Source: Pagrus major (lineage: Eukaryota > Chordata > Actinopteri > Spariformes > Sparidae). From it: 64,000 nucleotides of DNA. The stretch lies in assembly GCF_040436345.1 (NCBI RefSeq), contig NC_133221.1:2111618-2175617 (forward strand), in the 5' to 3' direction. The notes beneath the pieces were generated by a model. The model was not told the DNA's origin and did not search any database. It saw only the letters and a list, made by a program, of their open reading frames with translations. The translations under genes and the position numbers were made by a program. Below are positions 2,290 to 51,364 of this stretch, in pieces; positions within the stretch are counted from its first letter, which is position 1; each line of letters starts with the position of its first letter.

Positions 2290-5200
2290 ATGAAGATCCA
2301 CCACGTTCTGTTCTTCTGCTTCATCTCAGGTGAGGACTGATGACCTGACTGTCTCTTTAACGCAGCACCACACACTGCTTTGGGACATTTTATTTGTTAA
2401 TGTGGCTAAATGTTTGATGACACATGTTCTACAGTTGTTGTTGCTCCAGCTGATACAGAAATGATCATCTGTGTTCTGTGTTCATCTTTCCAACAGCTCT
2501 GTGTGGAGACACTGGGCTCGTCAGCGCAAAACTCAGCATTTTCACAGGAGCTGAGGGAGGAAGTGGTTCAATTAATTGCTATCCATCTCTGTCTGGAAAC
2601 AAGAAGTTCTTCTGTGAAGAAGAATGTAAAGCAGAAGATATTCTCGTTAAAACAGAAGATGTCAGAGCTCAGAATGGCAGATTCAGCACTGAATATAAAG
2701 TAGAATCTTCTGGAAGAGGAGTTCTGACTGTGACCATCACAGATCTGACCAAGTCTGACGCAGGACGGTACAGGTGTGGTTCGGGCACTGATTTGGTTCC
2801 AGACTCATACTCGGACTTTGTGATCAGAGTTTCTGATGGTGAGTTTCTACTGAAAGTCTTTAAACCTGATTTATTTAGTGAATTCAACGATGTAGGAATA
2901 TTTCTTTTATCTACATATGAAAACAATAGAATATATTATTATATATAAAAAAGGAATAAATGATTTATAAACTTTTTAAGACATTTGTGATTTGTAGTTC
3001 TGGACTATATTAATAAAAGATTTAATCAAATTATGGGAAGAATTGTAGTTATTCATGTTGTATGACCTTTCGGAGCAGCTGTCAGTGATGATCTGTGTTC
3101 ATGTGAAGCAAGAAATACTGAGATCAGACTGCAGCATTTCACAGACAGTAACTGTTGACTGTTTCTCTTTTCAACAGAACTGCCGGGTGGAAGCACTAGT
3201 TTTTTCCGTACAGATACTGAAGGAGAGAATATCACATTGGGATGCCTCGATACTGTTCAGAGTAAACAGAAGTTCCTGTGTAAGGACAAATGTGAAACAG
3301 AAGAGGACATTATCATTGAAACTGATGCCAACAGAGCCCAGAGTGGAAGATACAGCATTGAATATAAAGAAGGATCTACATTTGGACTGCATGTAACCAT
3401 CACAAATGCAAGCAAATTGGACACAGGATGGTACAAGTGTGGCTACGGCAGAGCTTTGTCTCCAGATTCATCCTACCCATTCTCGATCCTCGTCATTCCT
3501 GGTGAGTGTTTATTAAAATCACATGAATATGTACCTTTTCTCCAAAAGTGATCATGAAAAACGTGTTTGCTTCCTTTGTCATTTTATTTATTCTGCAAAA
3601 ATGTTTTTTTAAATGACCTGACAACAGCAGAAATGAAAATATGACCAGAACGTTTATATTTAGCATGTAGAAAAACAATAAATAATTGGTTGAAAACCAA
3701 AAATAAAGTTAAAAGCATCACAAATACTTAAAAAGAGAACTACTACCTGTTTGACCTGCTGATAGAGAGATGACAGGGAATTAGAAGAGGTGGACGTGAA
3801 CCTTCAGCCACAATAGCAACCCTAGCAGTACATTTCAATTATCTGCAGTTATGTTCACATTCAATATGTGGAAGGTCACATTAATACTTTTTTTTAATGT
3901 TGTTGGAAAAATACCATAATATGGATTACTGTTATTTGCATGTAAATTCTCTACATATCACAGGTTTATACACAAAAGTGTCCTCTATAGTTTTATCAAT
4001 TTTAGGTGATATAAAGCCGTTCCACTCTTTTTGCATTGTTTTATTTCATTTTTATTGTATTTAGATGAAGTTAGAGATACTTTCTTTGTGTTCAGTAAAA
4101 CTTAGACCTTCTGTCATCAACAAAAATCAAATCATCAGAATTAGCTGAACCATAAATTAACAAACATTGTAAACATATGTCCAGTATGTTCGTTGTGTAT
4201 GATTGATGCCTTTAATTATGATACTTACTGGTTTTCGCACCTGACTGATTATCTTGTATTCCTACATTTTGTTATATTTGTATATATTTACACTCATTCG
4301 TACATGGTGGATTTCTCTGCATCAGTATCTATTCAGTATCTTATTTCATTGTCTTTTCATTGTCCACAGATCCGTCCAAACCAAACCAGACTCCACCACC
4401 TTTTTCAACATCAGTCCCATCAGCCTCCACACCAACAACGCAGAGTTTAAAACTCAGTTCAGAAAGTGTCATCGCCTCGTCGTCTTTTCCTAAAACCACC
4501 AACCAGCCTTCAGCTGCAGGTACGGTTCATTAAGACTGCTGACCATCAAACTCCACCTCCATCTCACCTTGAATTTTACAACACAGGTGTTTTCTTCACA
4601 GTAGTGCAAAGAGTGAGAGGAAGTTTAATGACGTAACACTCACCAGGTTTTGTGCATCATCCAAACTACATGAGACACATTTTCTTACAACAAGGAAATA
4701 AATTGCAATCATTTTCCTTCTTTTTGGACCCTGTGTACACTTCCTATCTCTCTCTCCCCCCTTCTCTCCCTCTCTCCCTCTACATATACTGTAGAGGAGT
4801 TCAGTAAAATCTATCATTAAGAAATGGAAGGAATATGGCACATGTGTAAATCTGCCTGAGCCTCCCTCACCAGTGTTTCTATCTCCCAGGTCGCTGCCCC
4901 AACAATCCGGTGTTGTGCCCACTTCACACGGGGCACCATTATGTAGTTTGGGTTAAATTTGGCTATCAATAATAATTAATGATTATCAGGGCTAATCATT
5001 AATTATGATTAATAATAAGATCCAATTTACATAAGATCACCTTGGGGCACCACCCTTGAAGAAGAGAAAAGATAGCCAATTCACCAAATCAGTCTCAGAA
5101 AAAGTACTAAACTGTTTGTAACTCTGATTAATAATTAACTTAATAACTACAACCAAGTGAAGAGTGTTTCAGCTAGTAATGGTCGAAGGATTTTGGAGTT

Positions 5201-5324
5201 CTTGACAGAGTAGAGGTTGGCAACATTCACTCTTGTACAGTATTAAATAGGCAGCTTGAAGGTTCAAAAGTCCTTTATTTACACAAAGATGAAAACACAC
5301 TAACTAACATGTACTATATACAGG

Positions 5325-5380
<56 letters not shown>

Positions 5381-6672
5381 TGTGACGTGATGCCAAGTTA
5401 TGGAAGATGGTTAGTTGTATGCAAAGACCCTGAGTCTGTGTGAAACATCATTTGACTAACGTCGAATTAGCCGTCTAGGAGAGCAAACTACCAATAACCT
5501 GACCTGAGATCGTAATAACACTCAAACAGTGGACACACATAAATTGAACACATGTGCATTACATCAACCAGAGTTTAAAGTCATGTGCTTAGCCATGCTA
5601 TGCTATGCTATCTAAGCCCAGTTCAACGTTACCAGTCTCTAAGAAAAGGTGCTGGTGGTTGCAGGAGAACGTTGGGATATACTATAATATGGATTACTGT
5701 TATTTGCATGTAAATTCTCTACATATTACAGGTTTATACACAAAAGTGTCCTCTGTGGTTTTATTAATTTTAGGTGATATAAAGCCGCCCCACTCTTTTT
5801 GTCTTGTTTTATTTCATTTTTATTGTATTAAGTTGAAGTTAGAGCTACTTTCTTTGTTTTCAGGAAAACTTAGACCTTCTGTCATCAACAAAAATCAAAT
5901 CATCAGAATTAGCTGAACCATAAATTACCAAACATTATAAACATATGTCCAGTATGTTCGTTGTGTATGATTTATGCTTTTAATTATGATACTTACTGGT
6001 TTTCGCACCTGACTGATTATCTTGTATTCCTACATTTTGTTATATTTGTATATATTTTCACTTATTCATTCATGGTGGATTTCTCTGCATCAGTATCTCT
6101 TCAGTATCTTATTATTTCATTGTCTTTTCATTGTCCACAGATCCGTCCAAACCAAACCAGACTCCACCACCTTTTTCAACATCAGTCCCATCAGCCTCCA
6201 CACCAACAACGCAGAGTTTAAAACTCAGTTCAGAAAGTGTCATCGCCTCGTCGTCTTTCCCTAAAATCACCAACCAGCCTTCAGCTGCAGGTACGGTTCA
6301 TTAAGACTGCTGACCATCAAACTCCACCTCCATCTCACCTTAAATTTTACAGCACAGGTGTTTTCCTCACAGTAGTGCAAAGAGTGAGAGGAAGTTTAAT
6401 GATGCAACATGCAAACCACATGAGACACATTTTCTTACAACAAGGAAATAAATTACCATCATTTTCCTTCTTTGTGGACCCTGTGTACACTTCCTGTCTC
6501 TCTCTCTCCAGTCTGCTCCAGTGTCCCTCACCCAGGTTACATCTGGGGTCTGGTTGTTTTACTGGTGGTTGTTTTTCTGCTGATCCTCTACATATGGAAG
6601 ATGAGGAGGGACTTCAGGTCAAGCATCAGAAACACAGAGGTGATTTTCTCCAACTCCACACACCGTCCTTGA
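2290..6672 (+). CDS. CD300/CMRF35-like (pIgR-like) two-Ig-domain membrane receptor, unit 1
   Basis: Exons by frame and GT-AG sites: leader 2290-2329, Ig1 2497-2838, Ig2 3178-3501, stalk 4370-4519, second stalk 6141-6290, transmembrane/tail 6512-6672 with TGA. All joins are phase 1; the product is 388 residues with both stalks or 338 with one. The leader begins [13 protein letters not shown]. Each Ig domain has the extra close cysteine pair typical of CD300/pIgR V domains (CEEEC-like segment) and the DAGRYRCG or DTGWYKCG signature. The stalk is Pro/Ser/Thr rich. The helix (GYIWGLVV...) has no charged residue, and the 24-residue tail has no tyrosine, so no ITIM or ITAM. It probably sits at the surface of myeloid or epithelial cells and binds lipid or Ig-type ligands, by family analogy only. 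The exact orthologue (CMRF35-like molecule versus pIgR-like) is not decidable here. Confidence 0.85.
4370..4519 (+). other. First stalk exon of unit 1 receptor
   Basis: This 150-base exon encodes about 50 residues rich in Pro, Ser and Thr, likely a mucin-like O-glycosylated stalk. It is followed by intron sequence that leads towards a transmembrane exon in unit 4, but here the expected transmembrane exon is missing at about 4750-4790 and foreign sequence begins. The exon is still open and phase 1 at both ends, so it can be spliced to the second stalk exon or skipped. Confidence 0.75.
4796..4865 (+). mobile_element. Tc1-like transposase remnant
   Basis: One frame reads SSVKSIIKKWKEYGTCVNLP, which matches the N-terminal helix-turn-helix region of Tc1-type transposases (SIIKKWKEYG motif). 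It is a short, broken remnant exactly where the first copy of the transmembrane exon should be. Confidence 0.6.
4870..5665 (-). mobile_element. Probable LTR-element fragment (minus orientation)
   Basis: Read on the minus strand, a sequence ending ...CTACA is followed by TGGTGCCCCGTGTGAAG, which looks like a primer-binding site next to a 5' LTR end. A TTTATT (AATAAA on the minus strand) lies near 5276. The limits are uncertain and no coding sequence is present. It separates the two stalk exons of unit 1. It could be another type of repeat. Confidence 0.35.
5328..5384. repeat. (TG)n microsatellite
   Basis: Nearly uninterrupted TG dinucleotide run inside the insertion between the two stalk exons of unit 1. 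Confidence 0.95.
6141..6290 (+). other. Second stalk exon of unit 1 receptor
   Basis: Near-identical copy of the exon at 4370-4519, with the same acceptor (TTGTCCACAG) and donor (GGTACGG). The upstream intron copy resumes at about 5680, so the 3' part of intron 3 plus this exon were duplicated. This copy is the one directly followed by the transmembrane exon. Confidence 0.8.
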
Positions 6673-11763: not shown

Positions 11764-11996
11764 AACATGATGATGTGATGTCAAACACTGAGAAGGAAAA
11801 ATCAGCAAACCCTTTGACTACTTGTTGATTTGGCACTGTCTGTATTACACACTTCGGAGATCATTGGATTTTGCTGTGTTTGTGTGCTGTCTCTGCTGTC
11901 GTGTACTGAGACTTGGGGATTTACTGGGGTGTGTTTATTCCTTAGAAGTGATGAATTTAAAAAAAAAGCAGGAAACACAAGTGGACCTCCCAAAAG

Positions 11997-12004
11997 TATA
12001 AATA
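11997..12004 (+). promoter_or_regulatory. TATA-like box, unit 2 chimeric gene
   Basis: TATAAATA 145 bases before the leader ATG, in the same conserved block as the other units. This suggests that the chimeric gene inherited the receptor array's promoter. Confidence 0.5.
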
Positions 12005-12141
12005 GAAAGTATAAGAAGTGAAGCACATTTGTCAGAAATCATGAAACTAAAGCAGCTCAGCTTCCTCTTTGATCAGACAGAGTAGAGTGGAAGGAGTGAA
12101 GTGACAGAGACGGTTTTGTCTCCATCAGGATCAAACTCAGA

Positions 12142-15100
12142 ATGAAGATCCACCACGTTCTGTTCTTCTGCTTCATCTCAGGTGAGGACTGATGACCTGA
12201 CTGTCTCTTTAACGCAGCACCACACACTGCTTTGGGACATTTTATTTGTTAATGTGGCTAAATGTTTGATGACACGTTTTACAGTTGTTGTTGCTCCAGC
12301 TGTCTCATTCTACCAGTATAACAAGACATTTGGCCGTTGATTTTGAGTCGATGGCTCAAATGACTTGGGAGCTATTGAAAAAATTGGGCGGTGTATTCAT
12401 TATTTATTAAAAAAAATATTCCTGAAAAAAAGAAATTCCACTAAAATCCAATAACAGCTGTATCCCAATGACTCCACTGTAACAAGGAGGATTGAGGACA
12501 TTGCGGGAAACCTGGAGCTTCAGCTGCAAACAGCGCAGTCAACTTTGACTTTTTTTATTCTCTGCTTTGGACGAGAGCTGTGATGTACGTGACACAGCAC
12601 AACTACTCATCTTCGTACGTGAGATAACTACGGACTTTAAGATCATGGAGGAGCTGGCAGCCATGCAGTCAATGAAAGGGACAACAACTGGGAGCAGTGG
12701 CGCGCACAGACTTTTTGAAGGGCAGGGGCGAAAAGAAAAAAAAGGGCACATACAGTGCCTTCTCGCCACTAAAGAGGGCACTTTAGCGAGCGTTTTTGCC
12801 ACTCAAGAGGGCAGTTTATCATGTTTTAACCAGCCAAGGGGGCAGTTTAGTGTGTCTTACATAAACAAAAATACTCCAAATTGTCCTTAAAGTGTCAACA
12901 GACACCCCCAACCCTGTCACTAGTTTAAGTACAGTACTTAAGTAAATGACTTTGTTACATTCCACAGCTGATTTTACTGACAGAGACAGCGACACACCTG
13001 AATACACTGAAATGCAACGTGACAAAGTCCAGATGATTCACAGAAGTCATGTTTCACCTGTAGTGTCTGAGTGTTTCTTATACCTCCTGAGCTCTGAGTG
13101 GCAGGACAGGATGGGACAGGACCAGATGCTTCCCTTTAAGTATATGTGGGAAGGGGACTACGTAGAGGTCTCATGTCCAGGAGAACAACATATTAGTCCT
13201 GTAGTGTGCGTCAGAGAATAGCTAAAGGAAGAGGCCCACACTTAGGACTGACCAGTTCAGAGGTTCAAGATTGATTCGATGTATACATTTTCATCTAAGT
13301 ATAGAGAGACTAGCAGGTCAACTTCAGATAACATCAATATAGTCACGCACACACATTCATGTACACATATTCCCTTCAGAGATATTCTCTAGAGGTGTTA
13401 TGCAGACCTATTCTTTTCCCACAGGATAGAGGGGCTCTCAGTGCCCCAAAAGTAAACAATTAGAGGAAACAGGCGGGCATGAGCAAATGAACTCTAAAAA
13501 GGACCTGCACACCAGAGAACGGGGGTGATTTTGGTTGATCTCCTAAGACTGAGGGTCAGAGAGTTGATAGAGCAGAGGGCAAAGCATTTTGGGCATCACT
13601 TTGCCGAGATTTGAGAATACCAGGGAGTGCACACTCTGGTTCGGACGCTGGCTTGAGATCTGTTTCAATAAAGATTGCTCTGTCAAATCCACCCAGCCTT
13701 GCCTCCGCAGAATCTCTTATCAACATACTACACGCCGACACCTTTTGAGGACGACAGCCCATACACTTCACACCCAAATGTCACCAGTATGCATGTCTGT
13801 CACTACAGGGCTGAGTGCCGTCTCATCACATGTCCCTCGTCAGTACCATTTTGTTTCTGACCTGAAGAACATGACTGAAGCTCAGAGGTACTGCAGAGAG
13901 AAATACACTGACCTGGCAACTATAGACAACATGGAGGACGTGAGGATCTTGATCGACACCGTAGATAAAAGCAAAGTGTCCAATGTGAGTTCACTGATGT
14001 CTTTCTTTAGTCTCAAAGCCATTTTTGACAAACATGTAAATGACACGCAGGTTGAAAGTTTTGCACTTCCACATTGGTGTAAAGTCAGTAGATACATTTT
14101 GAAGTAACATTTTGAGGTACTGTACTTGTACTTGAGTATTTCCATTTAATGCCATTCTGTACTTCTACTCCACTACTTCTCAGAAGGACATTGTAAGCAG
14201 CACTTTAATCTTGTGTCTGATTAAGGTGCAGCTTGAATCTAAACTACTCCTACCTCTACCTCTAGAAAATGCCTCATATTTATTTGTTTACAATATGAAA
14301 TGTACTCATAGACTATATGTCTACATATGTCTATATATGTATACAACGCTCTTTCCAAAGAAGTTGGGACGTTGTGTAAAATACAAATTAAACAGAATCG
14401 GGGAATGTGATAATTTGCTGATCCTTTTTGACATAAACTCAATTTAAAACAGTACAAAGACAATTTATTTATTTCATGTTCAACTTCACTGATTTGTGTA
14501 AATATATGTCTATTCTGAAGCGACGCGTTTCAAACAAATTGTGACGGGGCAACAAAAGCCTGAAAGTTGTTGTGTTGGAAGCTTCCACAGGTGAACAGGT
14601 TCATCGGTAACAGGTGATCGTATCATAATCGGGTATGAAAGGGGCGTCCTCCAAAGGCTCAGTCGTTCACAAGCAAGGATGGGGCGAGGTCGTCAAACAC
14701 ATGATTGTATAAATGATTTTACTACATGAGCTCAGGAACAGCAGGACTGAAGTCAGTTCTTTGCAAATGTTTGCATTGTGTCTTTATTCTACACAGCGTC
14801 CCAACTCTTTTAGAATCGGGCTGTGAAGTGTTTTTAATATAAAACTCCCTCGTTGTGTTTCACCAGACTGAGTGTCCCTGTTGAGCTGCAGTGGATGGAA
14901 ACAAAAGGAGGGAATGTTGTATTAGAAAGCCTGTCACTTTGGAGGATATGAACTGGATCTGTGTCACTCAGACTGCTGAAGCCTCAGATTAACTTTTGAG
15001 TGTATATTGTGTTGCCGTGTAATAAATGTGAGGCTAAAGAAAGATATATTAAAATATTGCTTTCAGAGTGTCTGGATCGGGCTGTATGATGACGTGAACA

Positions 15101-17794
15101 GCTGGAGGTGGTCACTGTCAGACACCAGTTTCTACAAAGACGGGGAGACTGAGTTCAGACAGTGGCAGACTGGACAACCAGACAACTATAAAAGTAGAGA
15201 CCACTGCACAGCGATGGATGATGGTGGACGATGGTACGACAGTAATTGTAAAAGTCGCCATCAGTCGGTCTGCATGGATGTCAGAGGTGAGAACATTCAG
15301 TGAAGTTTAAAACACACCAGTTCAGGTTCTTGAGCTCTCCCTCATTATTTGGGCCAATACAGGATCAGTCAGTCAAACTTTATTTACAGCACCTTCCATC
15401 AAAGTTAGTACAATTCAAAGAGCTTTACAGACGACTTACAAGCCAATAAGGCAGCAATTAATATTGATGATTTGACAGCGATGCAGGTGAGAATGAGAAA
15501 AAGAAGCTTGTCAGTGATGAATGACTTGTTTGGGTGGAGCAGATAGAAGAGCATTGTAATAGTCCATCCTGCTGGATTTAAAAACATGCTGCAGTCTCTG
15601 AGTCACTCAGATGGAGACGTGGCCGCAATTTAGCTGTTTCAGATAATAAAAGGCAGATCTGGCTCCACACCCCACATGAAAGCAACTGAGTACATGTACT
15701 CTATTACTACGCTACTTTATTTACTGTGTAACTTTATAACTCCACTGGATCTCAGAGGGAAAATGATGTATTCTTGAATTGACTTCATTTACTCAACAGC
15801 TGTAGTTACTTGTTACTGTTCAGATGAATATAAACATTAAAAAACATATGAGAAGCTTATAAAATACAACACATTGTTATATATTGAACTAGTTCCCAAC
15901 CTTGTTGTTTCTTTCTGCTGGTGACCTCTGACACAAAGCTCTGTCTACTGGAGCTTCTTGTCATGTTTCACATGTTCATGTGTTGTTAGTTCCACCAAAG
16001 ACACATTTCCCCACTAAACTTCTCACATGGTGAAGTCCAAAGAAGTCAGATGATCCAATGTTTTATGTGAAAGCAAATATTGGAGGAAAGTTAAAGAAAA
16101 GAAAAACTGAAGACAGATTTGTGCATCAGAACTTTTTTCTTTTCTTTCCTCTCCCATCAACCATCTGACGAGCCCTCAGATGTATCTGGTGACCCTTCAG
16201 AGGGGCCCGTATGTTTGTGTTTCAGAAATCTGAGGAAATATTCACATGTAGAAAAAATAATGTGTCAATCTATTAGATGTAGATTTTAAGGATGTGATTA
16301 TTAATGGGGAGAGACTGAAGAAATACAGTAACATTTATTAAGATGATCATGTCTTCCATTTTTATTTTACAAAGTCATTAATTCAGTGGATTTATAATGC
16401 TGTGAATACTGCCACAGACACGGCATGGATGGTAAACTGTATGTTATAGTACCTCTGCACAGCACTGTGCTCTGTTTTCAGGGCTGAATGTGACGTTTGT
16501 CCTCATCAATACTTCCATGACCTGGACTGAGGCCCAGAGCTACTGCAGAGATCACCACACAGACCTGGCCAGTGTGAGGAACACAGCAGAGAACCAGGAG
16601 GTAAAGGACGTGATACCTTCAAGAGGAATAGTCTGGATCGGCCTTTTCAGAGACTCCTGGAAGTGGTCAGATGGACGTAACTCCTCATTTAGGTACTGGG
16701 ATCAAGATCGAGGTCAACCTGATAACTATGGTGGTAACATGGAGGATTGTGTGGGAGCACACTTGGGCAGAGATGGAAAATGGTGGGACATTCTCTGTGA
16801 CCTGAAGAAACCGTCCGTTTGCTACAGCCCACGTGAGTCTTAACTCTTGATTCAACTTGTATTTATATTTGGATTTTGGTTTAATTTAGCATCAAATGTC
16901 CTCAATGATAATGTTACAAAAACAACACAAAACATAAAGTTATGGACAGAAAATAAAATGTAAACACTCCTGATGTTTATCACAGCTTTCAGATTTTTAA
17001 AATGAGAGAAAATTAATATTGAGCAGAATTAAGTTCAAATTATTGTTGGTCCGGCCCTCCAGCACAGCTCGGGTTTGTCATGTGGCCCCTTGGAATAATT
17101 ATTTGCCCACCCCTGCTCTAAGGTTAAAGAGGACTGGTTTGGTGTAAATAACAACTATATTAATACAGGGGTCTACCAAGCCCAGGGGGCCAGAGGTCTA
17201 GAGGAGCCAGGAGCCCCAAAACGGTCCTTGTGCATCTGTGTCCAGGGGGACAGTAGTTCATAATCCATCACTGTATTAATACAGTTTATAATGTAACATT
17301 ATAGTTTGACATTTGTGTCAATAATTGTCAAGCACAGGTGACTCCGCAGTGGTGGGAGGGGGGCACCAAATCAAATTCTGCTTAGTGCCCCCAAAAGGCT
17401 TGGGCCGGCTCTGATCAAACTCCACCTCCATCTCACCTTGTATTTTACAACACAGGTGTTTTCTTCACAGTAAAGCAAAGAGTGAGAGGAAGTTTGATGA
17501 CGTAACACTCAATGACGTTTTATGTAACGTGCAAACCACATGAGACACATTTTCTTACAACAAGGAAATAAATTACCATCATTTTCCTTCTTTGTGGACC
17601 CTGTGTACACTTCCTGTCTCTCTCTCTCTCCAGTCTGCTCCAGTGTCCCTCACCCAGGTTACATCTGGGGTCTGGTTGTTTCACTGGTGGTTGTTTTTCT
17701 GCTGATTCTCTACATATGGAAGATGAGGAGGGACTTCAGGTCAAGCAGCAGAAACACAGAGGTGATTTTTTCCGACTCCACACGCCGTCCCTGA
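12142..17794 (+). CDS. Chimeric receptor: CD300-type leader, two C-type lectin domains, CD300-type transmembrane exon
   Basis: Exons: leader 12142-12181, CTLD1a 13809-13984, CTLD1b 15067-15286, CTLD2 16482-16832, transmembrane/tail 17634-17794 (TGA). Total 948 bases, 315 residues, all open, with GT-AG sites and matching phases (1, 0, 1, 1). The leader and transmembrane exons are near-identical to those of the neighbouring Ig receptors; no Ig or stalk exon is present between them. CTLD1 (about residues 14-145) has YCREK, WIGLYDD, a QPD motif and WYD in place of WND. CTLD2 (146-262) has YCRDHH, WIGLFRD, QPD and WWD. The helix is at about 272-291 and the tail lacks tyrosine. It should be a type I membrane lectin binding carbohydrate or protein. 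Leader-to-CTLD1 splicing across a 1.6-kb intron holding a hAT fragment and a solo LTR is inference. Confidence 0.7.
12302..12700 (+). mobile_element. hAT transposase remnant (GTF2IRD2/ZBED-like), intron 1 of unit 2
   Basis: A frame from 12567 reads LDESCDVRDTAQLLIFVREI and continues to MEELAAMQSMKG, the conserved core of hAT transposases of the GTF2IRD2/ZBED type. Upstream frames are broken by stops. It begins exactly where intron 1 homology to units 1, 3 and 4 ends (after GCTCCAGCTG). The same junction occurs in unit 5. Confidence 0.7.
12701..13012. other. Unassigned repeat-like sequence between hAT remnant and lectin DNA
   Basis: The segment has a triplicated G-rich wording (GAGGGCA, CAAGAGGGCAGTTT, CAAGGGGGCAGTTT), which looks like transposon UTR. 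No gene is visible. Homology to the minus-strand lectin locus starts at about 13013 (GCAACGTGACAAAGTCC). Confidence 0.4.
13059..13770 (+). mobile_element. Solo LTR in lectin-derived intron (unit 2)
   Basis: A 712-base insertion starts TGTAGTGT and ends ACACTTCA (inverted with one mismatch) and is flanked by CACC at 13055-13058 and 13771-13774. The minus-strand lectin gene has the uninterrupted site at about 62126-62135 (ATGTTTCACCCAAATG on its coding strand). AATAAA is at 13667-13672. No coding interior remains. Confidence 0.75.
14341..14825. mobile_element. Kolobok-like non-autonomous DNA element
   Basis: The ends are inverted copies of each other: ACAACGCTCTTTCCAAAGAA then GTTGGGACG on the left, and CGTCCCAACTCTTTTAGAATC then GGGCTGTG on the right. 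This wording is familiar from abundant Kolobok-type fish elements; the family name is from memory. It lies in the intron between CTLD1a and CTLD1b and has no ORF of note. Confidence 0.5.
15300..16481 (+). other. Intron between CTLD1 and CTLD2 of the chimeric gene
   Basis: No exon is seen here. A stretch at about 15365-15660 (TTTATTTACAGCACCTTCC...) resembles common fish dispersed-repeat 3' ends. The remainder resembles low-copy intron sequence. Confidence 0.4.
16985..17410. repeat. Repeat-like filler at the right chimeric junction
   Basis: Homology to the minus-strand lectin intron stops at about 16982 (TGATGTTTATCA), and homology to the receptor intron before the transmembrane exon starts at about 17413 (ATCAAACTCCACCTCCATC). 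The 430 bases between have transposon-like wording (GGCCCTCCAGCACAGCTC, TGGCCCCTTGGAATAATT) and no ORF. This brackets the right breakpoint of the gene fusion. Confidence 0.55.
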
Positions 17795-18683: not shown

Positions 18684-18911
18684 TGATATTCAGAGTCACG
18701 CAGGTTATCTCTATACTGTTGGTAGTCTGTTAGTTATCTTGGCCCCCAAGATTTGTCTATCACACATTATCTGGTCTGTTGCAATGAATACTGCTGTACA
18801 ACAGCTGTGATGTCATTTCCTGTCACCTTGGTAAAGTTGTTGATCTTATTTTCAGATCCCTTTCACCTGTAAGGATTTGGGTCAAGCCTCCATGTGAAGA
18901 CTCCACCGTCA

Positions 18912-21313
18912 AAACCTGCAATATTAGGGAGCAAACCTGCAGCGATTAGGAGCAAACCTGCAGTGATTAGGAGCAAACCTGTAGTGATTAGGAGCAAACC
19001 TGTAGCGATTAGGAGCAAACCTGCAGTGATTAGGAGCAAACCTGCAGTATTAAGAAGCAAACCTGCAGTGATTAGGAGCAAACCTGCAGTATTAAGGGAC
19101 AAACCTGCAGTGATTAGGAGCAAACCTGCAGTGATTAGGAGCAAACCTGTAGTGATTAGGAGCAAACCTGTAGTGATTAGGAGCAAACCTGTAGTGATTA
19201 GGAGCAAACCTGTAGCGATTAGGAGCAAACCTGCAGTATTAAGAAGCAAACCTGCAGTATTAAGGAACAAACCTGCAGTGATTAGGAGCAAACCTGTAGT
19301 GATTAGGAGCAAACCTGTAGTGATTAGGAGCAAACCTGCAGTGATTAGGAGCAAACCTGCAGTATTAAGGAGCAAACCTGCAGTGATTAGGAGCAAACCT
19401 GCAGTGATTAGGAGCAAACCTGCAGTATTAAGGAGCAAACCTGCGGTGATTAGGAGCAAACCTGTAGTATTAAGGAGCAAACCTGTAGTGATTAGGAGCA
19501 AACCTGCAGTATTAAGGAGCAAACCTGCAGTATTAAGGAGCAAACCTGTAGTGATTAGGAGCAAACCTGTAGTATTAAGGAGCAAACCTGTAGTGATTAG
19601 GAGCAAACCTGCAGTATTAAGGAGCAAACCTGCGGTGATTAGGAGCAAACCTGTAGTATTAAGGAGTAAACCTGTAGTCATTAGGAGCAAACCTGCAGTG
19701 ATTAGGAGCAAACCTGCAGTGATTAGGAGCAAACCTGCAGTGATTAGGAGCAAACCTGCATTATTAAGGAGCAAACCTGCAGTGATTAGGAGCAAACCTG
19801 CAGTGATTAGGAGCAAACCTGCAGTATTAAGGAGCAAACCTGCAGTGATTAGGAGCAAACCTGCAGTGATTAGGAGCAAACCTGCATTATTAAGGAGCAA
19901 ACCTGTAGTGATTAGGAGCAAACCTGCAGTGATTAGGAGCAAACCTGCAGTGATTAGGAGCAAACCTGTAGTGATTAGGAGCAAACCTGCAGTGATTAGG
20001 AGCAAACCTGTAGTGATTAGGAGCAAACCTGCAGTATTAAGGAGCAAACCTGCAGTGATTAGGAGCAAACCTGCAGTGATTAGGAGCAAACCTGCATCAT
20101 TAAGGAGCAAACCTGTAGTGATTAGGAGCAAACCCGCAGTATTAAGGAGCAAACCTGTAGTGATTAGGAGCAAACCTGCATTATTAAGGAGCAAACCTGT
20201 AGTGATTAGGAGCAAACCTGCAGTATTAAGGAGCAAACCTGCAGTGATTAGGAGCAAACCTGCATTATTAAGGAGCAAACCTGTAGTGATTAGGAGCAAA
20301 CCTGTAGTGATTAGGAGCAAACCTGCAGTGATTAGGAGCAAACCTGTAGTGATTAGGAGCAAACCTGTAGTGATTAGGAGCAAACCTGCAGTATTAAGGA
20401 GCAAACCTGCAGTGATTAGGAGCAAACCTGCAGTGATTAGGAGCAAACCCGCAGTATTAAGGAGCAAACCTGTAGTGATTAGGAGCAAACCTGCAGTATT
20501 AAGAGCAAACCTGCAGTATTAAGGAGCAAACCTGTAGTGATTAGGAGCAAACCTGCAGTGATTAGGAGCAAACCTGCAGTATTAAGGAGCAAACCTGCAG
20601 TGATTAGGAGCAAACCTGCAGTATTAAGGAGCAAACCTGCAGTGATTAGGAGCAAACCTGCAGTGATTAGGAGCAAACCTGTAGTGATAAGGAGCAAACC
20701 TGCAGTGATTAGGAACAAACCTGTAGTGATTAGGAGCAAACCTGCAGTGATTAGGAGCAAACCTGTAGTGATTAGGAGCAAACCTGCAGTGATTAGGAGC
20801 AAACCTGTAGTGATTAGGAGCAAAACTGCAGTGATTAGGAGCAAACCTGCAGTGATTAGGAGCAAACCTGCAGTGATTAGGAGCAAACCTGCAGTGATTA
20901 GGAGCAAACCTGCAGTATTAAGGAGCAAACCTGCAGTATTAAGGAGCAAACTTGTAGTGATTAGGAGCAAACCTGCAGTGATTAGGAGCAAACCTGCAGT
21001 ATTGAGGAGCAAACCTGCAGTGATTAGGAGCAAACCTGCAGTATTAAGGAGCAAACCTGCAGTATTAAGGAGCAAACTTGTAGTGATTAGGAGCAAACCT
21101 GCAGTGATTAGGAGCAAACCTGCAGTATTGAGGAGCAAACCTGCAGTGATTAGGAGCAAACCTGCAGTATTAAGGAGCAAACCTGCAGTATTAAGGAGCA
21201 AACTTGTAGTGATTAGGAGCAAACCTGCAGTGATTAGGAGCAAACCTGCAGTGATTAGGAGCAAACCTGCAGTATTAAGGAGCAAACCTGCAGTATTGAG
21301 GAGCAAACTTGCA
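18912..21313. repeat. 21-bp minisatellite, about 114 copies
   Basis: Two interspersed 21-bp subtypes, GTGATTAGGAGCAAACCTGCA and GTATTAAGGAGCAAACCTGCA. As 21 is a multiple of three and the unit lacks stops in several frames, very long repetitive ORFs appear on both strands; I do not regard these as genes. Units 1 and 3 have one and two copies at the homologous place (about 7730 and 30940), and unit 4 has one partial copy. A 126-bp higher-order repeat is present near the 3' end. Confidence 0.97.
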
Positions 21314-24785: not shown

Positions 24786-27700
24786 ATGAAGATCCACCAC
24801 GTTCTGTTCTTCTGCTTCATCTCAGGTGAGGACTGATGACCTGACTGTCTCTTTAACGCAGCACCACACACTGCTTTGGGACATTTTATTTGTTAATGTG
24901 GCTAAATGTTTGATGAAACATGTTTTACAGTTGTTGTTGCTCCAGCTGATACAGAAATGATCATCTGTGTTCTGTGTTCATCTTTCCAACAGCTCTGTGT
25001 GGAGACACTGGGCTCGTCAGTGCAAAATTCAACATTTACACAGGAGCTGAGGGAGGAAGTGGTTCAATGTCGTGCTACCTGTCTCAGCCTAAAAACACGA
25101 AGTTCTTCTGTAAAGAAGAATGTAAAGCAGAAGATATTCTCGTTAAAACAGAAGATGTCAGAGCTCAGAATGGCAGATTCAGCACTGAATATGAAGTAGA
25201 ATCTTCTGGAAGAGGAGTTCTGACTGTGACCATCACAGATCTGACCAAGTCTGACGCAGGACGGTACAGGTGTGGTTCGGGCACTGATTTGGTTCCAGAC
25301 TCATACTCGGACTTTGAGATCAGAGTTTCTGATGGTGAGTTTCTACTGAAAGTCTTTAAACCTGATTTATTTAGTGAATTTAGTGATGTAGGAATATTTA
25401 TATATTATATATTTAAAAAAAGGAATCGATGATTTATAAACTTTTTAAGACATTTGTAATTTGTAGTTCTGGACGATATTAATAAAAGATTTAATCAGAT
25501 TATGGGAAGAATTGTAGTTATTTATGTTGTATGAACTTTCGGAGCAGCTGTCAGTGATGATCTGTGTTCATGTGAAGCAAGAAATACTGAGATCAGACTG
25601 CAGCATTTCACAGACAGTAACTGTTGACTGTTTCTCTTTTCGACAGAACTGCCGGGTGGAAGCACTCGTTTTTTCCGTACAGATACTGAAGGAGAGAATA
25701 TCACAATGGGATGCCTCGATACTGTTCAGAGTGAACACAAGTTCCTGTGTAAGGACAAATGTGAAACAGAAGAGGACATTATCATTGAAACTGATGCCAA
25801 TAGAGCTAAGAGTGGCAGATACAGCATTGAATATAAAGAAGGATCTATATTTGGACTGTATGTAACCATCACAAATGCAAGCAAATTGGACACAGGATGG
25901 TACAAGTGTGGCTACGGCAGAGCTTTGTCTCCAGATTCATCCAGGAGACTCCCGATCCTCGTCATTCCTGGTGAGTGTTTATTAAAATCACATGAATATG
26001 TTGCTTCATATAATTCATGTACTTGTCCAATCCACTTATTTTTATTATTTCTTTCCTCCATAAGTGATCATGAAAAACATTTTTGCTTCCTTTGTCATTT
26101 TATTTATTCTGCAAAAATGTTTTTTTAAATGACCTGACAACAGCAGAAATGAAAATATGACCAGAACGTTTATATTTAGCATGTAGAAAAACAATAAATA
26201 ATTGGTTTAAAACCAAAAATAAAGTTAAAAGCATCACAAATACTTAAAAAGAGAACTACTGCCTGTTTGACCTGCTGATGGAGAGATGACAGGGAATTAG
26301 AAGAGGTGGACGTGAACCTTCAGCCACAATAGCAACCCTAGCAGTACATTTCAATTATCTGCAGTTATGTTCACATTCAATATGTGGAAGGTCACATTAA
26401 TACTTTTTTTGAATGTTGTTGGAAAAATACCATAATATGGATTACTGTTATTTGCATGTAAATTCTCTACATATTTCAGGTTTATACACAAAAGTGTCCT
26501 CTGTGGTTTTATTAATTTTAGGTGATATAAAGCCGCTCCACTCTTTTTGCATTGTTTTATTTCTTTTTTATTGTATTTAGATGAAGTTAGAGCTACTTCC
26601 TTAGTTTTCAGTAAAACTTCATCATATCAGTAAAATCAAATCATCAGAATTAGCTGAACCATAAATTAACAAACATTATAAACATATGTCCAGTATGTTC
26701 GTTGTGTATGATTTATGCCTTTAATTATGATACTGGTTTTCACACCTGACTGATTATCTTGTATTCCTCCATTTTGTTATATTTGTATATATTTACACTT
26801 ATTCATACATGGTGGATTTCTCTGCATCAGTATCTATTCAGTATCTTATTATTTCATTGTCTTTTCATTGTCCACAGATCCGTCCAAACCAAACCAGACT
26901 CCTCCACCTTTTTCAACATCAGTCCCATCAGCCTCCACACCAACAACGCAGAGTTTAAAACTCAGTTCAGAAAGTGTCATCGCCTCGTCGTCTTTTCCTA
27001 AAACCACCAACCAGCCTTCAGCTGCAGGTACAGTTCATTAAGACTGCTGACCATCAAACTCCACCTCCATCTCACCTTAAATTGTACAGCACAGGTGTTT
27101 TCTTCACAGTACTGCAAAGAGTGAGAGGAAGTTTAATGACGTAACACTCACCAGGTTTTATGCATCACGCAAACCACATGAGACACATTTTCTTACAACA
27201 AGGAAATAAATTGCAATCATTTTCCTTCTTTTTGGACCCTGTGTACACTTCCTGTCTGCTGATGTCACTTCTTGGGCTGGCAACTAAAGTTGACCTGATT
27301 GTCTCTCTGTCCTTAAATGGAAATGTATACGTTAAGCCAGCTCCAAACAATGGCGTGAGAAAGGAACTCAGTTTAGTATCCTGTAAGGGCCTCATCCTGT
27401 AGCTAACCTTTTAACACAAACGCAGAGCTGATTAATGACTCTGGGCCCTCCTAACAGATCTTCTCAACATCAGCCACCTTACTTAACCCCCACAAACAGG
27501 AACAACATGACACAGTTAAATCATAGCTCAGAATGTGTTGTTGCACAGATACCTCACATGTCTCGGAGGATGTCATTAGTAACAGCCTTGAAGACAGCTG
27601 GGACGTTGGTCAAGCCAGAGGGCATTTCTTGGTATTCGAAGTGGCCCAGGGGTGTGTTGATCCGGTCTTCCACTTGTCTCCCTTCCGAATCCGGACCAAG

Positions 27701-29509
27701 TTGTAGGCGTTTCGTAGATCCAGCTTAGTGAAGATTTGGGCGTGGCAAAGTGGCTCAAATGACAGGTCGATAAGAGGAAGAGGGTACTTGTTTTTTACCG
27801 TGATATTGGTGAGGCCACAATAATCAATAAAGGAGCGGTAGAGGGTAAAACGAATGCAGCTAAATATAGGGACATCCTGGAGGACAACCTGATTCAGTCT
27901 GCAAGAAAACTACATAGAAGAAAGGAGTCAAATCGTAGTGTCCAGATGTGCAGGAGTTATTGAGACCTCTCCACACAGACTCAGTGCTGTGATTGAGGCC
28001 AAAGGTGCAGCTACTAAATACTGATGTGAAGGGGGTGAATACTTATGCAATCACTTATTTTATATGATATATTTTTAATTAATTGACATTACTTTGTAGA
28101 AATCTGTTTTCACTTTGACATTACAGAGGTTTTTTGTAATTTATTTGTTTTGTATATTTTTTATATTGAAGTTCAGAAGAAGATAACACAACTGTAACTT
28201 ACAATGCAAGTGTTGGGAGAGGAGGGGAAAAGTCTAACATGTCTAACAAGTTTAACATATAAATCATCCATCTTTGCCCACTTCATCTTAGTCTTTGTGC
28301 CCTCAGGGATGCATAAACTGCAGGTTATGAACTTATTTTTTCAAATTACAAAAATGTGAAATTATTATCGGTATCGGCTGGAAAAACACATATCGTGCAT
28401 CCCTAATTACTTCATATAATTCATGTACCTGTCGCCCAATCCACTTTTATTTTTATACAGATTTTCCCCAAAAAGGGATCATGAAAAACATCTTTGCTTC
28501 CTTTGTCATTTTATTTATTCTGCAAAAATGTTTTTTTAGACAACAGCAGAAATGAAAATATGACCAGAACATTTTATACGTTTATATTTAGCATGTAGTA
28601 GTAGTTTTATATATTTTAGGTGATATAAAGCCGCCCAACTCTTTTTGCATTGTTTCAGTTTTTTTAGATGAAGTTAGAGCTACTTTCTTTGTTTTCAGTA
28701 AAACTTAGACCTTCTGTCATCAGCAAAAATCAAATCATCAGAATTAGCTGAACCATAAATTACCAAACATTATAAACATATGTCCAGTATGTTCGTTGTG
28801 TATGATTGATGCCTTTAATTATGATACTTACTGGTTTTCGCACCTGACTGATTATCTTGTATTCCTACATTTTGTTATATTTGTATATATTTACACTCAT
28901 TCATACATGGTGGATTTCTCTGCATCAGTATCTATTCAGTATCTTATTATTTCATTGTCTTTTCATTGTCCACAGATCTGTCCAAACCAAACCAGACTCC
29001 ACCACCTTTTTCAACATCAGCCCCATCAGCCTCCACACCAACAACGCAGAGTTTAAAACTCAGTTCAGAAAGTGTCATCGCCTCGTCGTCTTTCCCTAAA
29101 ACCACCAACCAGCCTTCAGCTGCAGGTACAGTTCATTAAGACTGCTGACCATCAAACTCCACCTCCATCTCACCTTAAATTTTACAACACAGGTGTTTTC
29201 TTCACAGTAGTGCAAAGAGTGAGAGGAAGTTTAATGATGCAACATGCAAACCACATGAGACACATTTTCTTACAACAAGGAAATAAATTACCATCATTTT
29301 CCTTCTTTGTGGACCCTGTGTACACTTCCTGTCTCTCTCTCTCTCCAGTCTGCTCCAGTGTCCCTCACCCAGGTTACATCTGGGGTCTGGTTGTTTTACT
29401 GGTGGTTGTTTTTCTGCTGATCCTCTACACATGGAAGATGAGGAGGGACTTCAGATCAAGCTTCAGAATCACAGAGGTGATTTTCTCCGACTCCACACGC
29501 CGTCCTTGA
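24786..29509 (+). CDS. CD300/CMRF35-like two-Ig-domain membrane receptor, unit 3
   Basis: Exons: leader 24786-24825, Ig1 24993-25334, Ig2 25647-25970, stalk 26878-27027, second stalk 28976-29125, transmembrane/tail 29349-29509 (TGA). All joins are phase 1; 388 residues with both stalks, 338 with one. Ig1 keeps CYL...FFCKEEC...DAGRYRCG and Ig2 has CKDKC...DTGWYKCG. Ig2 differs from the other units at the C-terminal strand (SSRRLPILV rather than SSYPLPILV). As in unit 1, the first stalk copy lacks its transmembrane exon and is followed by transposon debris (27260-28410). The tail has no tyrosine. Function is inferred from the family only. Confidence 0.85.
27255..28410. mobile_element. Transposon debris between the two stalk exons of unit 3
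   Basis: Composite region replacing the first transmembrane exon. It contains a Ty3/gypsy RT remnant (minus strand, about 27540-27850), a Tc1-like remnant (about 27860-27930, [16 protein letters not shown]), a segment ending in the wording GGGGGTGAATACTTATGC and AATTACATATATTT-type tails common to fish DNA transposons, and an end with TATCGGTATCGG and ATATCGTGCATCCC, reminiscent of hAT-like termini. Receptor intron 3 sequence resumes at about 28410. Confidence 0.6.
27540..27850 (-). pseudogene. Ty3/gypsy reverse transcriptase remnant
   Basis: On the minus strand the broken frames give [40 protein letters not shown], and a final [18 protein letters not shown] segment. This order matches the Ty3/gypsy RT core ([17 protein letters not shown]). 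It is frameshifted and lacks the YxDD part. Confidence 0.75.
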
Positions 29510-37080: not shown

Positions 37081-37894
37081 GTAACTCGCTCTGTGTTACG
37101 TAAATTTAATTGGATGTTTATGTTTGTTTGTTTAGTTCTTACGACATTCGTCGACATGTGGACTTTTATTGAAATTCCTCGACTGAAGACAATAAATGCC
37201 TGTGAGAGGACCACCTTGTGTCATGATTGACTGAACGGGAGTTACAGTAAGAACTCAGCCTGTCCGACGTGAGGTGGAAAGACGATGTGTGCGCCCGCCG
37301 TGGACGGAGCTGCAAGGAAGTTGCAACGCACGCCAGCACCGAAAAAATAAGACTGTTCACATACCGGTAACCCAAGCAAGCAGAGTCCAAGAGCATCAAG
37401 TGATCAAGCTTACAACAAGTAATACATTTAAAACAAGTTGAATGTTAAGAGGTATAGCTTATCAACTGCTATAAGGGACTCTATAAGTGCTGAAGAGACA
37501 AGTTTTCTGGTGTTACGTACATAACAACCAAGTCATTTCTGATTTCATCATATTCGTTTATTATTTAACCATTTAAGTGTTTTGACATTCAAAGAATCAT
37601 TCTTTGGTACTGTTCAAGCTAAAAATAAGTGATATAATTCTTTGCAAGTGGAAATAAGTTCATTTGTATTGTGAAAGCGATTTTTGAAACATTAAGACAC
37701 TGTAAAAAATTGTTGGTTAAATTTGAAGGTTAAAAAGGGTTAGGTTAGTTGAAATTTGTATTTTATTGCAATTTAACAGCTCTACTAAGTAGTAATCTTC
37801 AAGCTAAACTAGTCAACTTAACTAGTTTCAGTTACATTTAAAGGGTAACTACATTAAAAAATACAAGTAAGGTTAACTCAAAAACAATCTGAAC

Positions 37895-40360
37895 ATGGCT
37901 GTGTATCATGGTAATACTGAAGCTATAGAAGTACAACAGCAGTCTAAAAATCTTGTTGAAGCAAATGTAAACACTAATGCATTACAAGAGAGTGAGGTTG
38001 GCATTGAGAAGCAAGCTGCTGCACAAGAAGGACCAAGAAGAAGTCAGAGAACCCGAACACTGACTGAAAAGGGTCAAGAACTCCAAGATAACAAATCTAA
38101 AAAGCTTTTGAACAGTTTTACAACTGCTTACAAGAAATGGAAATCTCTCGTGAGGGAGGCTAAAAGAGCACATGACGGATCCCTTCCCAATGAGATACTG
38201 CAAGACCACACGACTAAGGTCCACCATGCTTCAACAGATGTAAAACAAGCCTATGAAGACTTGCGTCTTTACAAGGCACCTGATGGAGAGACACGTCGTC
38301 GAGTAGACACATGTGATGCTCTCACAAGAAAGATCTTGCAATGGGAACTGAGCGAAGAGACAGATAAAGAGCAAGGTTCTAAAAGTGATCAAGCATACTG
38401 GGTTGAGAATGGCTCAGTGTTTTTATCTGCAGCATCCCAGAGATCTGAAGTGGACTCTCAAGGAGTCAAGTCTACAAAGAGTTCAAGCTTAAGTTCAAAA
38501 CGTTCAAGTCTGTCCTCTACAAAGGTAAAAGAAGCTGCAGCGGAGTTAGCTGTAACTCAAGCCACTTTGGAAGTTTTACAAGAAATGGAACGTGAGAAAC
38601 AAGAGCTTGAAACACTTGAAAATGAGAACAGACAGAGACTTGCATTACAAGAAGCTGAAAATGCTGCAAGACAAAATGCTTTAGAAGAGAAGCGTATGCA
38701 GATAGAGCGCTTAAAGACAGTCAAGAAAATGAATGCTGCAAAGGCAAGACTGCAAGTCTATCAACAAGAAGTAGACTCAGATCAAGAGATATCAGATTTG
38801 CTCCACGACTGCAAGCCTAGGCAAGAGAAACGTGTACATAAATCAAGAAGTCTCCCAGTGCATCATATAAAAGAGACTGGTGCTCATGTACAACCTGCTG
38901 TGTTAACACAACCTGTCACAAGGGAGCAGCCTGCTATTAACGCCCATCAAGAGCATAGTACTACATCACTTGCCAGTGCAATAGCAGAGTCAATCAATGC
39001 AAGCCGTCTGCCTGTACCAGAGCCTGCTGTCTTCAATGGAGACCCGCTAAGGTATAAAGACTGGAAGATGTCTTTTCAAACTCTGATAGGCAGGAAACAC
39101 ATTCCAGTGAATGAGAAGGTCTACTACCTCCGTAAGTATGTCGGCGGACCTGCAAAGAAAGCCATTGAGAGTTATTTTCTGATAGGCACGGATGCAGCTT
39201 ACCATTCAGCGTGGTACGTCCTGGAAGAAAGATATGGAAGCTCATTCATGATTGCTAAAGCTTTCAGAGATAAGCTCACCTCATGGCCAAAGATAGGACC
39301 CAAGGAGAGTGTTGAACTCAGAGAGTTCTCAGACTTTCTTCGAGGCTGTGAAGCAGCAATGTCTGAGATTAAAGGTCTCCAAGTCTTAAATGACTGTGGT
39401 GAAAACCAAAGAATACTTACCAAACTGCCTGACTGGTTGACAGCCAGATGGAACAGAAAGGTAATTGAGTTTGAAGAAGAAGCTAAGACATTTCCCAGCT
39501 TCAGTCAGTTTGTTGAGTTTGTCGCAAAGGAAGCTAAGATAGCCTGTAGCCCTGTGACCTCTCTTCATGCTCTGAAGTCTAATGATGTTGAAAAGATGAA
39601 GACACCAAAGACACGAAGCGTTGGTGTAAAGGTGCTGACAAGCAACTCTGAAGAGAACCCAGATGTTAAGGGTTGTGTGTTTTGTGAGAAGTCAAACCAT
39701 AGCATTCACACATGTCGAAGATTTATAGACAAGTCACTTACAGAAAGAGTCAAGTTTGTGCAAACAAATAAAATCTGTTTTGGATGTTTGAAAACAGGAC
39801 ACCTTTCAAAGAACTGTGAAAAGAGGAGTGTCTGCGACACATGCAAAAGGAAGCATCCAACATGCTTACACGAAGATCGAGCTAAGGAGGACAGAAAGAA
39901 AGAACATCGGGACGACGAAAGAAAGGACAGTGTGAAACACTCAAAAGAGAAAGAAAGGTCAAAAGAAAGAACAGAGTCTAAACCAACTGATGCAACGTTG
40001 AGTGAGGCAACTTCTCACCGGGTCGTACAAGATATGAAGAGCACTCATACCTCCTCGGTTATGCCAGTATGGTTATCCACAACAAGTAACCCAGACAGTG
40101 AAGTTCTTTTATATGCACTTCTGGACAATCAAAGTGACACCACCTTTGTTTTGCAAGAAAAGGCTGATACTCTGGATACACAAAAGGAGCCTGTGCAACT
40201 GAAACTCTCAACGCTAGCATCCAGAAGTACAGTCATTCCAAGTCAGAAGCTAACTGGGTTGCAAGTTAGAGGCTTTTATTCATCAAAGAAAATCCCTCTC
40301 CCAATAACTTACACAAGAGAGTTTAATTCCTGTCAATCTAAGTCATATCCCCACACCTAA
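37895..40360 (+). CDS. BEL/Pao Gag and protease ORF
   Basis: 821 codons. A coiled-coil rich segment at about residues 210-300 (many Glu/Lys/Gln heptads) is followed by a DUF1759-type Gag region at about 368-555 (VFNGDPLRYKDW, YLRKYVGGPAK). Zinc-knuckle-like Cys/His clusters lie at about 593-665 (CVFCEKSNHSIHTC, CFGCLKTGHLSKNC). A retropepsin-like motif at about 740 reads LLDNQSDTTF, unusual in having Asn-Gln where Asp-Ser/Thr-Gly is expected, though Pao proteases vary here. The ORF ends out of frame: the next frame continues the protein from about 40323, so one extra base near 40322-40327 separates Gag-PR from Pol in this copy. Confidence 0.88.
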   Translation: MAVYHGNTEAIEVQQQSKNLVEANVNTNALQESEVGIEKQAAAQEGPRRSQRTRTLTEKGQELQDNKSKKLLNSFTTAYKKWKSLVREAKRAHDGSLPNEILQDHTTKVHHASTDVKQAYEDLRLYKAPDGETRRRVDTCDALTRKILQWELSEETDKEQGSKSDQAYWVENGSVFLSAASQRSEVDSQGVKSTKSSSLSSKRSSLSSTKVKEAAAELAVTQATLEVLQEMEREKQELETLENENRQRLALQEAENAARQNALEEKRMQIERLKTVKKMNAAKARLQVYQQEVDSDQEISDLLHDCKPRQEKRVHKSRSLPVHHIKETGAHVQPAVLTQPVTREQPAINAHQEHSTTSLASAIAESINASRLPVPEPAVFNGDPLRYKDWKMSFQTLIGRKHIPVNEKVYYLRKYVGGPAKKAIESYFLIGTDAAYHSAWYVLEERYGSSFMIAKAFRDKLTSWPKIGPKESVELREFSDFLRGCEAAMSEIKGLQVLNDCGENQRILTKLPDWLTARWNRKVIEFEEEAKTFPSFSQFVEFVAKEAKIACSPVTSLHALKSNDVEKMKTPKTRSVGVKVLTSNSEENPDVKGCVFCEKSNHSIHTCRRFIDKSLTERVKFVQTNKICFGCLKTGHLSKNCEKRSVCDTCKRKHPTCLHEDRAKEDRKKEHRDDERKDSVKHSKEKERSKERTESKPTDATLSEATSHRVVQDMKSTHTSSVMPVWLSTTSNPDSEVLLYALLDNQSDTTFVLQEKADTLDTQKEPVQLKLSTLASRSTVIPSQKLTGLQVRGFYSSKKIPLPITYTREFNSCQSKSYPHT

Positions 40361-51324: not shown

Positions 51325-51364
51325 ATGAAGATCCACCACGTTCTGTTCTTCTGCTTCATCTCAG
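51325..51364 (+). pseudogene. Orphan leader exon of unit 5
   Basis: Encodes the same [13 protein letters not shown] leader with an intact GTGAGG donor, but no compatible plus-strand exon follows in the window. The lectin exons further right are on the opposite strand. Probably a dead remnant; it could feed a transcript only if a distant acceptor exists. Confidence 0.75.

Follow-up and report, generated by a model that had tools for sequence, protein, structure and literature searches.

Lectin exons between the leader and membrane exons of a pIgR-like receptor unit, and their recurrence in a tandem array of Pagrus major

Members of the mannose receptor family (MRC1, MRC2/Endo180 and DEC-205) are built from a cysteine-rich domain, a fibronectin II domain and eight or more C-type lectin domains (CTLDs). 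Four conserved cysteines are expected in each CTLD, and a WND triplet provides the second motif of the calcium-dependent sugar site. Teleost lectins with two CTLDs are named macrophage mannose receptor 1-like or C-type mannose receptor 2-like at NCBI. Teleost polymeric immunoglobulin receptor-like (pIgRL) or CMRF35-like receptors have a V-type Ig ectodomain and a Ser/Thr stalk. PMC5379193 assigns the triplet EPN to mannose and QPD to galactose, and PMC3031540 defines CD300 by a YWCR motif in the V domain.

The DNA analysed here, referred to as the window, is a stretch of 64,000 bases of Pagrus major (red seabream; C7:2111618-2175617), and the neighbourhood surveyed around it covers 264 kb (C7:2071618-2335617). 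Positions given without a contig are those of the window and refer to the forward strand unless stated otherwise. The genome paper PMC12731029 names the assembly Pma_NU_1.0 (GCF_040436345.1), and a term search of it gave no word beginning with lectin. Among the open-access papers listed in literature searches, no title or abstract opening reports a lectin/pIgRL hybrid. The 264 kb hold 13 units with a pIgRL leader, namely Ig units A, B, D, F, G, I and N and lectin units E, H, J, K, L and M. They also hold lectin unit C, a lectin gene with a lectin-type leader (gene O) and inverted lectin genes at three places, with matches to a KDEL-type tail. Unit C has no nearby leader and was not counted as complete. 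Of the Ig units, B displays no membrane exon in the survey and N carries a different type.

Unit 2, the subject of this work, is unit E of the array, and units 1, 3, 4 and 5 of the window are D, F, G and H. The three other complete window units carry two Ig exons and Ser/Thr stalks. Unit D (2290-6672) consists of a leader, two Ig exons, two stalk exons and a membrane exon, unit F (24786-29509) repeats this layout and by eye resembles the protein P0121, and unit G (45424-48056) has a single stalk exon. Unit H begins with a leader exon at 51325-51364 and a fused-type joint at 51484/51485, and its lectin and membrane exons lie outside the window (C7:2178135-2182505). A long open frame resembling a LINE-type reverse transcriptase (36942-33748, minus strand) and a long retrotransposon gag-like frame (37877-40357, plus strand) were recognised by eye between units F and G.

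Gene model of unit 2

The promoter block, leader and membrane exon of the array are kept in unit 2, as originally predicted, with flanks aligning at ~90-96% to other units. The Ig exons are replaced by three exons coding two CTLDs, and no Ig exon is found between the leader and the membrane exon. The leader exon (12142-12181) codes 13 residues, and this peptide is shared by 12 of the 13 pIgRL leaders, the exception being unit G with two changes. CTLD1 is divided over two exons, 13809-13984, defined by reading-frame analysis and the model of the sister copy J, and 15067-15286, which contains QPD and WYD motifs and has the highest mean dN of the exons. CTLD2 is coded by a single exon (16482-16832) with QPD and WWD motifs. 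Five exons, with the membrane exon read to 17794, give a single open frame of 948 bases (315 amino acids plus stop) in which every intron is GT-AG. The predicted phase compatibility of the joins was borne out, the leader ending in phase 1 and the following exons in phases 0, 1 and 1. The unit 2 protein matches PF00059 (Lectin_C) over two stretches at 5.7e-32 with 111 bits against a cut-off of 22.6 (Pfam scan), and in an alignment of 40 sequences the CTLD cysteines (C42, C119, C133, C141 and C167, C235, C251, C259) proved invariant or conserved to 90% or more. Judged by sequence comparison, the flank similarity and the Lectin_C match are far beyond chance. The hybrid gene is real in the assembly, open and recurrent within the array.

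The translation of copy J is identical, letter for letter, to the NCBI protein P0001 (C-type mannose receptor 2-like), which carries the pIgRL leader and the pIgRL membrane exon. The AlphaFold model of P0001 reaches a mean pLDDT of 84, falling below 50 at the leader and tail ends, and places a helix at 272-299. Foldseek placed fragments of Endo180, DEC-205 and the mannose receptor in the first rows. Single CTLD chains reached TM-scores of ~0.6-0.8 by target length, and whole-model TM-scores were low (~0.16-0.35 by query length), as is expected if single domains alone match.

The end of the membrane exon is where the gene model departs from the original prediction, in which the exon (17634-17794) was read on to the stop at 17792-17794, giving 10 extra residues. 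The frame is open to that point and an intron-retention isoform is conceivable, but P0001 does not use this end and splices out after the position equivalent to 17761. Moreover, P0001 and the sparid proteins P0121, P0123 and P0127 run from ...TE into IPF, as if spliced at the 17762 donor (GTGATT). The longer exon is probably wrong, and we regard it as a rather unlikely end of the coding region. The membrane exon preferred here spans 17634-17761 and is followed by a last coding exon at 18856-18897 (IPFTCKDLGQASM-stop), both taken from the copy J model. As J corresponds to P0001 and splices at the equivalent donor, the unit 2 product is more likely to have 318 than 315 amino acids. The homologous last exon reads IPFL in units J, K, F and G and is longer in unit D (IPFTCKDLAPASTCEDSAVKTCSD). 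Tails starting with IPF, IPA or IPV at the same point are present in the Ig-unit proteins P0121, P0123, P0124, P0127 and P0128, of which the Sparus proteins P0123 and P0127 have the C-terminal end IPFTYRDLAPASTCEDSAVKTCSD. The tail of unit 2 (27 residues) contains no tyrosine and its membrane helix (20 residues) no charge, making direct signalling doubtful and capture, uptake or a decoy role the preferred possibilities. Beside the last exon, a 21-base repeat fills 18912-21313 in ~114 copies; its unit, AAACCTGCAGTGATTAGGAGC, is similar to the final part of the pIgRL tail exon (KTCSD-stop).

Shared flanks, fusion joints and sister copies

The putative promoter block and 5' region common to the Ig units were located by self-alignment at 11764-12141, with TATAAATA at 11997-12004 labelled by eye. 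The segment comprising the upstream block, the leader and the start of intron 1 (11764-12302) is ~92-95% similar to other units, and the membrane exon with its downstream block, from 17414, ~90-96% (self-alignment). The 200 bases upstream of the 13 pIgRL leaders were aligned, and units I and N are divergent there; the region upstream of gene O looks unrelated to the pIgRL block. Over 430 bases around the leader, identity with unit E amounts to 95.3-99.8% for the remaining five fused units and 94.8-97.4% for Ig units A, B, D and G, with lower values for F (87.2%), I (74.4%) and N (75.2%).

The 5' fusion joint (12299-12302) is positioned in intron 1 and reads GCTCCAG/CTGTCTCATT; CTG occurs on both sides, and the joint was placed at 12299/12300. 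Comparison of the 13 pIgRL leaders of the 264 kb revealed an identical joint in all six fused units, whereas the seven Ig units all read GCTCCAGCTGATACAG there, GCTCCAG being followed by CTGATACAG. The stretch past the joint (12300-12652) is common to unit 5 of the window (unit H) and aligns in the other fused units K, L, M and J as well. The 3' fusion joint (17405-17414) lies in the intron before the membrane exon, where similarity to gene O stops and similarity to the Ig units starts at 17414. Through this joint unit E aligns with H and K at 97-98% and with C, L and M at 92-93%, and J also aligns. Between the two joints, the match of unit E to Ig units of the window is limited to one 47-base stretch, and its lectin exons match the inverted lectin gene at 62-56 kb. 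Exon shuffling through introns, as originally proposed, is thus upheld by joints that are both intronic and sharp, by phase-compatible exons and by a gene O whose leader and upstream region are unrelated. At the level of genomic sequence, the joints show that lectin exons were joined to a pIgRL unit within introns.

Intron 1 of unit 2 also contains a solo-LTR-like insert (13059-13770) of 712 bases, TG...CA, with a 4-base duplication CACC. The insert lies within an unbroken alignment of E with K, and H, L, M and gene O align without it. It was rejected as the cause of the fusion, having lectin-type intron on both sides and being absent from the fused units H, L and M.

The layout had been predicted for a single unit; six fused units are present, i.e. 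five more near unit 2. All six are open from the leader to the membrane exon, with no stops and GT-AG introns throughout. Over 11.1 kb, units E and J differ by 51 mismatches (99.0% identity), and their neighbours are different. A search of the whole genome (785.9 Mb, 25 contigs) with the membrane exon returned 15 matches, 12 of them full length, all in C7:2082422-2267290. The first introns needed are 15.2 kb in H, 7.1 kb in L and 14.0 kb in M, and those of H and M contain an inverted lectin gene. Past the 3' joint of C, L and M comes a membrane-type exon of reduced length (G[YC]...), ending in an early stop in L and M, and a full pIgRL stalk and membrane exon lies beyond it, so that the 3' ends of these units are ambiguous. 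A Ser/Thr stalk exon is found in K (894 bases), H (114), L (132), C (78), M (78) and gene O (84), at a point corresponding to 16981-16982 in unit E; no such exon was seen in E and J. The stalk exon of K (C7:2216684-2217577) is composed of Ser/Thr/Pro repeats of mucin-like character, ~298 amino acids against 26 in C. The first lectin exon of unit L (C7:2229900-2230120) carries an in-frame 15-codon duplication.

Lectin relatives and divergence of the lectin exons

Gene O corresponds to P0004, which combines a pair of CTLDs with a Ser/Thr stalk and a membrane helix; its DNA is 96.8% identical to that of unit 2 over 13771-16982. The inverted lectin gene with a KDEL-type tail (55673-62131, minus strand), which lies in the 15-kb intron 1 of unit H and has its CTLD2 exon split by ~2.7 kb, was rejected as direct donor, being 75-95% identical in pieces compared with the 96.8% of gene O. 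Its tail (56378-55673, minus strand) ends in KDEL, and a [KR]DE[LIF] end, resembling an ER-retrieval signal, occurs in 30 of the 120 lectin proteins among the matches listed, which are predicted proteins. Just upstream of this gene, 62197-63653 holds ~73 copies of a 20-base repeat. Gene O was in turn rejected as a purely native control, its helix and a tyrosine exon downstream resembling pIgRL proteins of other fish. The helix (C7:2304939-2305037) is similar to that of Dicentrarchus pIgRL proteins, and the downstream exon (C7:2306108-2306200) codes a tyrosine tail, YENCSPESPCEDSTYESLDPVSRDQNQIYSTL, like those of pIgRL proteins. Gene O may therefore be an older hybrid with signalling motifs.

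A wider comparison included 234 lectin protein matches, i.e. the best 120 of 2248 and 114 new ones from the best 120 of 1613. Among these 234 matches listed, the N-terminus matches a pIgRL protein in P0001 only, and the C-terminus matches pIgRL proteins in four (P0001, P0004, P0035 and P0051). Similarly, a pattern for pIgRL leader and membrane pieces picked out P0001 alone among the same 234. No further fused protein is found among the best 120 of 1613 matches, the top of which is mostly formed by long multi-CTLD proteins. In P0051 (Centropristis striata) and P0035 (Scomber scombrus, partial) the CTLDs give way to a stretch that matches a pIgRL tail or stalk. P0035 continues into a piece of the tail known from KDEL-type lectins, and its model may be faulty. 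Lectin and pIgRL proteins occur on one contig in 15 of the 19 species common to the matches listed (contigs of equal size being taken as one) and on separate contigs in Cheilinus undulatus, Simochromis diagramma, Scomber scombrus and Cebidichthys violaceus. The two clusters thus seem to be widely linked, and this neighbourhood may favour such fusions.

Between units E and K, nonsynonymous differences (38/594) far exceed those in the two introns between the lectin exons (14/2275; Fisher 3.5e-16). Synonymous differences are also above the intron level for E and K (5/150 versus 14/2275, p 0.005), and for K and H the values are 3/150 and 14/2081 (p 0.10). As exon dS lies above intron divergence, part of the exon divergence may stem from conversion with other lectin copies. 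With L and the near-duplicate J of unit E omitted, the copies E, K, H, C, M and O give a dN of 0.087 and a dS of 0.041, and 0 of 1000 codon bootstraps had dN equal to or below dS. For the same six copies the excess is located in the second exon of CTLD1 (ratio 2.25, 17/1000 bootstraps contrary) and in the CTLD2 exon (2.53, 2/1000); the first lectin exon shows no excess (1.05, 443/1000). The fused units alone (E, H, K, L and M; J, C and O omitted) gave a ratio of 1.81 (5/1000). In the membrane exons of 11 units (J omitted, no bootstrap) dN is also above dS (0.046 and 0.021), so the contrast extends beyond the lectin exons.

Three or more residues occur in 24 alignment columns, of which 19 fall within columns 94-127 and 216-237 (56 of 250 columns); these bounds were set after seeing the sites and are a description, not a test. 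Both intervals surround the QPD/EPN and WND-like triplets. At the CTLD1 site the copies carry QPD (E and J), EPH (K), QPN (H and C), EPN (L and M) or EPD (O). The CTLD2 site has either QPD (E, J, K, H and M) or EPN (C, L and O). Unit 2 thus has QPD in both CTLDs, yet WYD and WWD occupy the positions where WND is expected, and its sugar binding is therefore not assured. The lectin exons appear to diversify under positive selection, with sugar-site motifs that change between copies and imply putative changes of ligand.

Proposed origin and relation to known receptors

The fused units could be rearrangement debris that is open through its recent origin and is translated little or never. The large first introns of H, L and M are in keeping with this, as are the single fused protein among the lectin matches listed (best 120 of 2248 and best 120 of 1613) and the fact that young copies need not have gained stops yet; P0001 is itself an annotation. 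Against it, all six units are open with GT-AG introns, an NCBI model (P0001) exists, and dN exceeds dS with 0/1000 bootstraps to the contrary, which would be unexpected under neutrality unless conversion from selected copies contributes. Debris is an unlikely explanation, made slightly less so by the ambiguous 3' ends of L and M. Another reading has the lectin exons start elsewhere, for instance in intron 1, with the pIgRL leader unused and a product that is cytosolic or has another signal. NCBI protein P0003 and Sparus P0019 do begin with sequence of the window intron (MSPVCMSVTTGLSA... and MSVTTGLSA...). This start is less hydrophobic than the pIgRL leader (best 9-residue mean 1.56 versus 2.47), P0001, the copy J model, uses the pIgRL leader, and the lectin leader MDAVLLLIMAASG gives a single match across the 264 kb at E 1e-3, which leaves an alternative start very improbable.

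An assembly error joining two loci has to be considered as well, since tandem copies of 97-99% identity are hard to assemble and a gap of 5000 N lies at C7:2325118-2330117. This gap is outside the units, however, and the remaining bases of the 264 kb are free of N. In addition, the same joints recur in six mutually different units, with E and J having different neighbours despite their near-identity, so that a misjoin is hardly credible. The reading that best accounts for the data, and which we consider probable, is a single intronic fusion followed by amplification of the hybrid and diversification under selection.

In this scenario, as the sequence shows, the lectin exons come from a gene of the neighbouring cluster of fish two-CTLD genes, without their own promoter, leader and membrane end. 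They were joined to a pIgRL unit inside phase-matched introns, taking up the part from its first intron to its last stalk intron. The fusion probably took place once, because the six complete fused units have the same 5' joint and a common 3' joint. The joints suggest that copies of the fused unit then came to lie among the Ig units through tandem duplication and that the Ser/Thr stalk exon disappeared from E and J. At a predicted 318 amino acids, the product would be a type I membrane protein with a leader, two CTLDs, one helix and a short basic tail. With the leader removed, the mature protein would keep only the membrane helix and tail of the Ig receptor, the other gain being the promoter; the hybrid would most likely be made where the pIgRL promoter is active. 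It would bind glycans of microbes, parasites or self, and a predicted role in capture, adhesion or uptake, or that of a decoy, is favoured over signalling of its own.

A broader interpretation, offered tentatively and with somewhat more doubt than belief, is that the pIgRL locus serves as a chassis with interchangeable ectodomains. A single capture of lectin exons would have led to six recently amplified hybrids, with loops under positive selection and switching between mannose- and galactose-type motifs. The trading of ends would be recurrent in percomorphs, as exemplified by gene O, Centropristis and perhaps Scomber. If true, the birth of an innate receptor family is caught in progress. Because the joints, the lectin relatives and the traces of amplification and selection can still be read, the path by which exon shuffling leads to a diverse set of receptors could be tested directly in an aquaculture species. 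The automatic name C-type mannose receptor 2-like can mask such a hybrid layout.

The CD300-type label given in the original prediction was corrected to pIgRL, a CD300 relative. The array's Ig type is named polymeric immunoglobulin receptor-like by NCBI, and the Ig-unit protein P0121 matches pIgR best among solved chains (6.7e-22, versus 9.6e-6 and 8.5e-5 for CD300/CMRF35). The Ig units lack YWCR, reading KFFCKEEC or KFFCEEEC in Ig1 and KFLCK in Ig2. In unit D, whose Ig exons were those scanned with Pfam, Ig1 passes the V-set cut-off and Ig2 lies 0.3 bit below it. Unit 2 shares the promoter block, leader, membrane and tail exons with teleost pIgRL or CMRF35-like receptors such as P0121, these parts being the array's own. 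In contrast, it has neither their Ser/Thr stalk nor the V-type Ig ectodomain by which pIgR- and CD300-like receptors are recognised. The tail tyrosine motif or helix charge of a paired signalling receptor is also missing. With the mannose receptor family, which ranks first among solved structures, unit 2 has the CTLD fold in common, but it contains two CTLDs and no cysteine-rich or fibronectin II domain (Pfam scan). P0051 and P0035 differ from unit 2 in their lectin-type leaders and are predicted proteins only. Both lectin domains and the exon borders are shared with gene O and the teleost two-CTLD lectins, although gene O has its own leader (MDAVLLLIMAAS), a Ser/Thr stalk and its own upstream region. 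The display of lectin domains is less novel than originally claimed: two membrane-borne CTLDs already exist in gene O, and the fusion changes the promoter, the signal peptide and the anchor together with the tail. The unit 2 hybrid is a variant of known fish lectin receptors and not a new category; it is its birth that is unusual, and readable.
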